Shown one piece after another: positions 28,601 to 31,600 of a stretch of 64,000 nucleotides of DNA. This DNA comes from Xiphias gladius (Eukaryota > Chordata > Actinopteri > Istiophoriformes > Xiphiidae): the NCBI RefSeq assembly GCF_016859285.1, contig NC_053422.1:11765501-11829500 (forward strand), read 5' to 3'. Position 1 is the stretch's first letter, and every line of letters starts with the position of its first letter. The notes beneath the pieces were generated by a model that was not told the DNA's origin, made no database searches, and saw only the letters and a program-made list of their open reading frames with translations. The position numbers and the translations under genes are program-made.

Positions 28601-31600
28601 CTTCTACTGCTCAGGCCTTATGGGAACATATGTCAAGAAATCGTGACCTCAGTGGAAACCTAGCTGCGTACACACAGTATAAAGGACACATTAAAGACTG
28701 TATCTGTATTTTCTTTCCAGACAGTCATATCACTTCAGTAGGTTTTTAAGCAAACTACTTCGTTATAAGTTGAGTATTAACACTGAACTATTGAAATAGA
28801 GTCTGACACTCTTTTGTTCCACCCTTCTGACCTTTACATTAGTCTGCTTTTCTCTTTATCTCAAGTCCCCCAGTTTACATGAGTGAGAGTTTTTTTTTTT
28901 TTTCTTTTCTATGAAAGCTTCTTTAGCAATAGAAGCAAACCTGAATTGTTTTCAAAAAGGTATCCTATACAAAGAAACCTAGGTTAGTGGTAGATTGTAG
29001 AATACCTGCCTGATAAGACGTGTATTTACAGTACATATTAGGCATTTATATCATATTATACTAAATGCCTACTACATTTTCTGTATGCAGGCTTCAACTT
29101 CAGCTTAATTGGTTGTAAAACAAGTTAAATAACCTTAATGTGTGACATGATTAACACCCTGTACACTTTGCAAGAAATGGTTGCCAATAAGTGCTTGTAT
29201 TTTTTATTATGTCAGGTCTATAGTAGCGTACCAACCAGAAGGAGACAACAGTCACACCTTTGAGGTCATGGCGATGCTGAAATCTTTTGGGATTTTCCTC
29301 GGAGTCTTCAGCGGCTCTTTTGCTCTGGGAGTGGCCACCGGAGTCGTCACTGCTCTCATATCTTTTCTGGGGTTTTTTTCCATGTTTATTTATAGGAGAA
29401 ATGTGTCGAAACATGTTATTAATAAGCTCCATCCATCCACTGTAGCATGCAGAAGTTTAAAAAAGGGGCCTTGTTCGCAACACATTTTTCTTGTCTGAAG
29501 GATCCACTTGAAACGTTACAGTATTTTTAAATAAAGACAAATGCTTCATTCAAAGCTGTCACTCTATTTAAGACTGAAACACACAATATCTCACTGGAAA
29601 AAAATGAAATTATCTAACTGCATTAGCAGAATATTTTTAAATTCTCTCATTTAAGAAAAAAAAAAATCTTTTCCTAGATGTTATGACTGAATCGTGTTTG
29701 AAGTTTAATCGGACTTCATTTCACAGTGTCTGAGTGTCTGGTTAAACTCCTTGACTGTTGTCTGTACGTGACTAAGTTCACCAAGCTGAGGGATTTCCAG
29801 CTGCTGGAGACAGCTCTGTTCTTCCTCATGTCATGGAGCACATTCCTGTTGGCTGAGGCTTGTGGCTTCACAGGTAACACACACACACACACACACTGCA
29901 CACAAAGCACATACATACATACACATGCTCAAACTGCCACGGTAACAATGGTATACTGTAATTTAATTTGTCCAACCTTCCTTTTTCTGTTTCCCTGTCC
30001 TTCCTGCTGTGTTGCAGGTGTGGTAGCAGTGCTGTTCTGCGGGATCACTCAGGCCCACTACACCTACAACAACCTGTCCCCTGAGTCCCAGGACAGGACC
30101 AAGCAGGTCAGAACCTGGACTATAACAACACCACAACTCATTCCGTTCCTTTTCAGTATGCTTCAAGCATTGAGTTGTGTTTCTGCCTTTATTTTGAATC
30201 TTGTAAAAAGCTTTGAAACTCGCAAACAGTTAAAGCACAATGGAAATGTCACATAACTAATAAAGCTGTGTCAGTTTACAAGCTATAATATGGTATAATT
30301 TAAATGTATAATTTTGATTATGATTGTTTGTAGTCAAAGCCATGCAAGCTAAGTGTATTTAGCTGTTGAATTGTCTAACTGTGTTTCCTGGTAACTAATT
30401 TTCATCGTTGTTTTCGTTAAGCTGTACATCCACTAAGGCCGCCGTCATCTAAGGCAGTTGATGTTGTTTCTCGTGTGTTTCAGCTGTTTGAGCTGCTGAA
30501 TTTCCTGGCAGAGAACTTCATTTTCTCCTACATGGGTCTGACCTTGTTCACCTTCCAGAACCACGTCTTTAATCCGATGTTCATCGTTGGAGCCTTTGTA
30601 TCTTTTGCATATGAAACTACCTTTCGCACAAAAAGCCTGATGACCCTCTGCTTGGACACAGCATTGGCTGTTTTCACTCACATTTTAGTGTCAGCATAGG
30701 AATATGGAGCTACCACCATTTTCAGCAATGTTCATATGCCAAAGCAAAAAGTTCCCACAGTGTACCACCAAGGTGCAAATGGTAATTGATTTAAAGGGGC
30801 AGTAAATAAGCTTGGCACAGAGCAAGGAGGGTTCACTAGCTCTCCGCTTTGTTTTGTTTTCCTCTCCTTAACCTCCTTCCCCCCAGCTGGCAGTGTTCCT
30901 GGGAAGAGCTGCTAACATCTACCCTCTGTCATTCCTTCTTAATCTGGGACGACGCAACAAGATCAGATCCAACTTTCAGCACATGATGATGTTTGCGGGT
31001 TAGTGGTATACAGATACAGGAAGACATTTATCGTGTACATTGTAACCTCTGTAAAAATCTGATCTGTCATCCATCAAGAATAAGACTTTGCTATGAATTT
31101 AGGCCTTAAGGCGTCTGCACCCTTTGCATGCATTGGATTATTTTCTAGTTTATTGCAACCCACTTTCAGTAGATTAAAGGATAACCAACACAGGCTTGTA
31201 AACAGAGTGATTTATCCTATGTAGAAACTTGTTTGTTTGTTTGTAACATTGTCCTTCCGTGCTCCTTAGGACTGCGAGGTGCGATGACCTTCGCCCTGTC
31301 CATCAGGGACACGGCGACGTACGCCCGTCAGATGATGTTTTCCACCACTCTTCTGGTGGTCTTCTTCACTGTTTGGATTTGTGGAGGTGGCACCACCCAG
31401 ATGTTGTCCTGCCAGCGCATACGGTACGCCTCTCGTCCCCTCGTCAAATCCGTCCATGGGTCAAACTGGATTTGCAGTTAGCATTTGTTTTAACAAGGGT
31501 GGGTCACATCAGGCTACTTCGGACAAGTGAGGAAGACGGACTCTTTTTAATGCTCATCAGGTTAAAACTCCAAAGAATTATTTAACATAACCTTTGGTCG

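Follow-up and report, generated by a model that had tools for sequence, protein, structure and literature searches.

A predicted U12-type AT-AC intron in the endosomal Na+/H+ exchanger gene slc9a6 of Xiphias gladius

AT-AC introns of the U12 type are already known in the Na+/H+ exchanger family, both in flies and in humans. A table row of PMC2831892 (the sense of its columns is taken from the text below the table) pairs Drosophila Nhe3 (CG11328) with human SLC9A7 and gives AT-AC, U12 for both species; the same source lists ATATCCTT as the consensus of the U12-type AT-AC 5′ splice site and TCCTTAAC as the branch consensus. SLC9A6 is discussed among minor-intron genes in PMC6865273, and human SLC9A8 is named with a U12-type intron in PMC8329584. 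In a study of RNU4ATAC in Roifman syndrome (PMC4667643), retention of the SLC9A9 minor intron reached 85.4% in affected versus 2.7% in unaffected subjects, and correctly spliced SLC9A9 was almost completely lost. The entries for SLC9A7 with fly Nhe3, SLC9A9 and SLC9A6 bear out what the initial annotation had said about U12 introns in human NHE6-type genes. In zebrafish, 662 U12-type introns are counted in 612 genes (PMC9501576), and slc9 does not occur in that paper's main text. None of the main-text passages that deal with SLC9A6 and U12-type or minor-intron genes gives the sequence of the SLC9A6 intron; the passages on NHE6 together with AT-AC are unrelated, and those from a dog-domestication paper mention U12 for another gene only. 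The slc9a6 intron itself is presumably catalogued in fish databases already.

The window analysed here is a stretch of 64,000 nucleotides of contig NC_053422.1 of X. gladius, from a genome of 691 Mb. On its forward strand it carries a gene which, judged by its translation, is the endosomal Na+/H+ exchanger gene slc9a6, with the following features.

22641..33320, + strand: 16 coding pieces of slc9a6; exons 7-9 compared with NHE6, the rest assigned by eye, some borders approximate
29216..29357, + strand: exon 7 (numbered by the count of coding pieces located), from translation, aligned to human NHE6 residues 301-347 (chain 9s0r_A) and followed by a phase 0 intron
29358..29767, + strand: predicted U12-type AT-AC intron, 410 nt, phase 0, from sequence reading and homology
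29358..29366, + strand: 5′ splice site ATATCTTTT, 8/9 match to ATATCCTTT, T for C at +6
29747..29755, + strand: branch site CTCCTTGAC, 8/9 match to TTCCTTRAC
29766..29767, + strand: 3′ splice site AC, from sequence
29768..29873, + strand: exon 8, from translation and NHE6 alignment, with a GT donor at 29874

When joined, exons 7-9 align with human NHE6 over 112 of 112 residues without a gap (E 6e-60, 203 bits), while the match to NHE9 is weaker (E 1.6e-40, 141 bits). NHE6 is the better match of the two, and slc9a6 the probable assignment; no NHE7 chain is among the matches listed. In mammals, mmgt1 and fhl1 are neighbours of this gene. A synteny test through mmgt1 with the PF10270 profile gave no match, nor did its control, and a regular expression for the LIM domains of the neighbour fhl1 found nothing within the window. 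The other slc9a6 donors that were read (introns 2, 3, 4, 6, 8 and 9 by piece number) begin with GT in 6/6 cases, that of intron 4 being printed one base early as G/GTAAG (the slash marks the exon border here and below). The donor of exon 8, GTAACACACACA (29874-29896), passes directly into a (CA)n repeat tract, and this microsatellite might affect how the next intron is spliced.

With 29357 joined to 29768, the product follows human NHE6 without a gap, and this junction, together with the sequence, confirms the coordinates 29358..29767 and the AT-AC ends proposed in the initial annotation. The intron starts with ATATCTTTTC and ends with AC, its final stretch being GTCTGTAC; across both borders, exon 7, intron and exon 8 read ...ACTGCTCTC / ATATCTTTTC...CTCCTTGACTGTTGTCTGTAC / GTGACTAAG. 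The terminal AC thus lies at the true exon junction, as set by the NHE6 alignment. Exon 7 belongs to an open frame, 29151-29498, that continues into the intron, and the frame of exon 8 opens within the intron (29702-30256), as had been described from the letters alone. When the exon 7/8 junction is slid, a single other cut, CA-TA, yields the same mRNA; since sliding leaves only this choice, AT-AC alone of the two has terminal dinucleotides of a known kind.

Were the AT-AC reading an alignment artefact, a U2-type GT-AG intron would have to be in use, and in-frame open GT-AG pairs do occur, 50 near the junction and 47 in a second set of ranges. None of the 50, however, restores the right product length (the best 8 by length were inspected): the pair nearest in length is 1 residue off and replaces conserved residues with intron-coded ones, and the pair 29331-29734 adds 2 residues at the cost of part of exon 7. 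The best-scoring 5 of the 47 all depend on one weak donor, CAT/GTTATT (6/9 against MAG/GTRAGT), which retains 19 intron-coded residues that human NHE6 is without. We therefore give a GT-AG intron at this site next to no credence.

In the U12 5′ splice site consensus, ATATCCTT is followed by a ninth T. The sequence ATATCTTTT, placed at +1 of the AT-AC intron, matches 8 of these 9 positions (U12 motifs were scored here by consensus match counts instead of a position matrix). With T at +6, the pairing to U11 and to U6atac is expected to include a U-G wobble; on the basis of this pairing, the slc9a6 copy should have a weaker yet usable 5′ site. The branch site CTCCTTGAC is found shortly before the 3′ end of the intron. 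Its branch A is position 29754 with 13 nt of intron sequence after it, in agreement with the distance and the 8/9 match originally reported. The longer form TTCCTTRAC used for this count comes from the initial annotation, PMC2831892 having TCCTTAAC. The intron is in phase 0, the very phase that is under-represented among U12-type introns according to the relevant passage of PMC7367187.

How much these motifs say depends on whether the junction is known beforehand. In an unanchored scan of the whole window (both motifs at least 8/9, spacing 60-5000 nt, both strands), the + strand had 6 motif pairs and the − strand 4, and 100 first-order Markov simulations averaged 5.9 pairs per strand; since these counts equal the chance expectation, a motif pair alone is no evidence. 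Counts of ATATCTTTTC in the genome (1460 forward and 1547 reverse; the pattern written backwards gave 1447 and 1436) were likewise uninformative. At a junction fixed by homology, the chances obtained in simulated sequence were 1.3e-4 (5′ site), 0.06 (AC) and 0.003 (branch site, given AC). Together they come to ~2.4e-8, and to twice this value when the slide is allowed for, hence to about 2-5 expected cases in 10^8. The motif match is significant because protein homology fixes the junction.

Exons 7-9 were also used to seek paralogues in the genome, and exon sets were located on C17, C6 and C5, with a weaker one on C18. An AT-AC intron interrupts all three close paralogues (C17, 419 nt; C6, 122 nt; C5, 4056 nt) at the codon boundary of the slc9a6 intron, and each has a perfect 5′ site ATATCCTTT (9/9); for the branch site they reach 8, 7 and 7 of 9 at best, respectively. 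The best protein match is NHE6 for C17 and C6 and NHE9 for C5, with no NHE7 chain among the matches listed; C17 would then be a second slc9a6 and C6 slc9a7. The bodies of the window and C17 introns resemble each other in a short AT-rich match only. Among the four AT-AC copies, the one in the window is alone in having T at +6 and has the weakest 5′ site (8/9 vs 9/9). Accordingly weaker numbers are obtained for its duplexes with U11 (−2.5 vs −4.9 to −5.4 kcal/mol in the paralogues) and with U6atac (−5.5 vs −6.8 to −8.2 kcal/mol); the energy of the C6 branch site was computed from a 10-mer and is not strictly comparable.

The genome contains genes for U12 (C3), U11 (C24), U6atac (C21) and U4atac (C13), each represented by a single match that exceeds the Rfam gathering score; U6atac has a further, partial match below that score. 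These four snRNA genes and the three paralogues with perfect 5′ sites support the assignment to the AT-AC class of the minor spliceosome made in the initial annotation. Judged by duplex energy with the U11, U6atac and U12 of this genome, the intron did not stand apart from random window positions: as good a pairing as that of the slc9a6 5′ site was found at 423/5000 positions for U6atac, at 2527/5000 for U11 and at 342/5000 for both, and an equally good U12 duplex lay upstream of 113/2000 random AC sites.

The intron resembles that of Drosophila Nhe3 and human SLC9A7 at the level of AT-AC subtype and exchanger subfamily; as a difference, the window copy has T at +6. Human SLC9A9 provides a paralogous minor intron, retained in people with RNU4ATAC mutations, and the C5 gene, whose best match is NHE9, carries its AT-AC intron at the codon boundary used in slc9a6. 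SLC9A9 is a different gene; for the slc9a6 intron, dependence on the minor spliceosome is predicted.

U12 dependence does not follow from AT-AC ends by themselves (PMC2831892), and one may ask whether the major spliceosome removes this intron, as in some sodium-channel genes. The AT-AC introns of U2 type in the passages of PMC2831892 have G at +5, whereas the slc9a6 intron has C. A U12 branch site stands 13 nt from its end, and the paralogue introns have the perfect U12 5′ site, which makes removal by the major spliceosome highly improbable.

A dual mode of splicing is conceivable as well, in which the same intron is also excised through nearby U2-type GT-AG sites, since human SLC9A7 is listed as a twintron with products of 725 vs 727 aa (PMC3564746). 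The C6 paralogue (L059, C6:24396266-24396387) has an overlapping GT-AG pair that brings in ISFFD and takes out VTK, i.e., exactly +2 residues, which is the difference between the human SLC9A7 variants in PMC3564746; the +2 pair among the 50 in the window gene is of the same kind in this respect. The geometry of the window pair is different, though, with the donor within exon 7 and the acceptor within the intron, and its use would lose VATGVVTAL through a weak donor, GGA/GTGGCC. If the acceptor is placed 9 nt inside exon 8, as in C6, the best pair of the window adds 16 residues and again has a weak donor; in C6 itself the GT-AG donor is a 4/9 match. We regard a twintron in slc9a6 as unlikely, and the preferred reading remains a U12-type AT-AC intron excised at 29358..29767.

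The exon set on C18 belongs to a gene that we take to be NHE8-like, with one intron of interest.

C18:18044384-18044531, − strand: intron of the NHE8-like gene (L061), 148 nt, GT-AG, U12-like

This gene scores 23.8 bits against Pfam Na_H_Exchanger, under the cut-off of 26.2. Its joined peptide aligns with NHE6 residues 309-377 at equal length (E 5.6e-5), and its junction therefore shares its residue position with that of the window gene. The intron reads GTATCCAGAT...TTCCCTAACTATGAGCAG, or, with its motifs, GTATCCAGA...TTCCCTAAC...AG. The branch site TTCCCTAAC is an 8/9 match located 10 nt from the intron end. GT-AG introns of the U12 type have the 5′ site consensus GTATCCTTT, to which the C18 site is a 7/9 match; the duplex energies of this intron are weak. 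The likeness to the human SLC9A8 intron lies in the U12-like intron that the NHE8-like gene has at the aligned position; from the window intron it differs in its GT-AG subtype and weaker 5′ site.

Four further exchangers (L012, L016, L019 and L020, with L034 repeating L020), presumably of the plasma-membrane type by their own sequence and from what is known of the family, have uninterrupted coding at this site and no intron. They make up 4/7 of the other Pfam exchanger places; in the remaining 3, of which C24 has two and C1 one, the motif searched for had no match. One ancestral U12 intron of the endomembrane exchangers is the probable source both of the AT-AC introns in NHE6/7/9 and of the U12-like GT-AG intron in the NHE8-like gene, the subtype having switched from one paralogue to another, with no intron at this site in those plasma-membrane-type exchangers that were examined. 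We put modest confidence in this; such an ancestral intron, of one subtype in NHE8 and of the other in NHE6/7/9, would be the simplest reading of what is seen in one genome.

Taken at its sequence, the segment 29358..29767 is almost certainly an ancient U12-type AT-AC intron of slc9a6. In the mechanism that we propose, ATATCTTTT would be recognised by U11 and then by U6atac, U12 would pair with CTCCTTGAC around a bulged branch A, and ligation of 29357 to 29768 by the minor spliceosome would bring back the NHE6 frame. Sequence and homology establish the junction and the motifs. We infer this splicing, and the dependence of slc9a6 on the minor spliceosome, from motifs, paralogues and the literature. 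By all appearances the intron is an ordinary and well-conserved member of the U12 type, of low novelty; for general biology it is a further copy of a known intron and no new kind. It also illustrates cleanly how gene finders restricted to GT-AG would misannotate an intron. The result suggests that an endosomal pH regulator may depend on the minor spliceosome, which would bear on minor-spliceosome disease.
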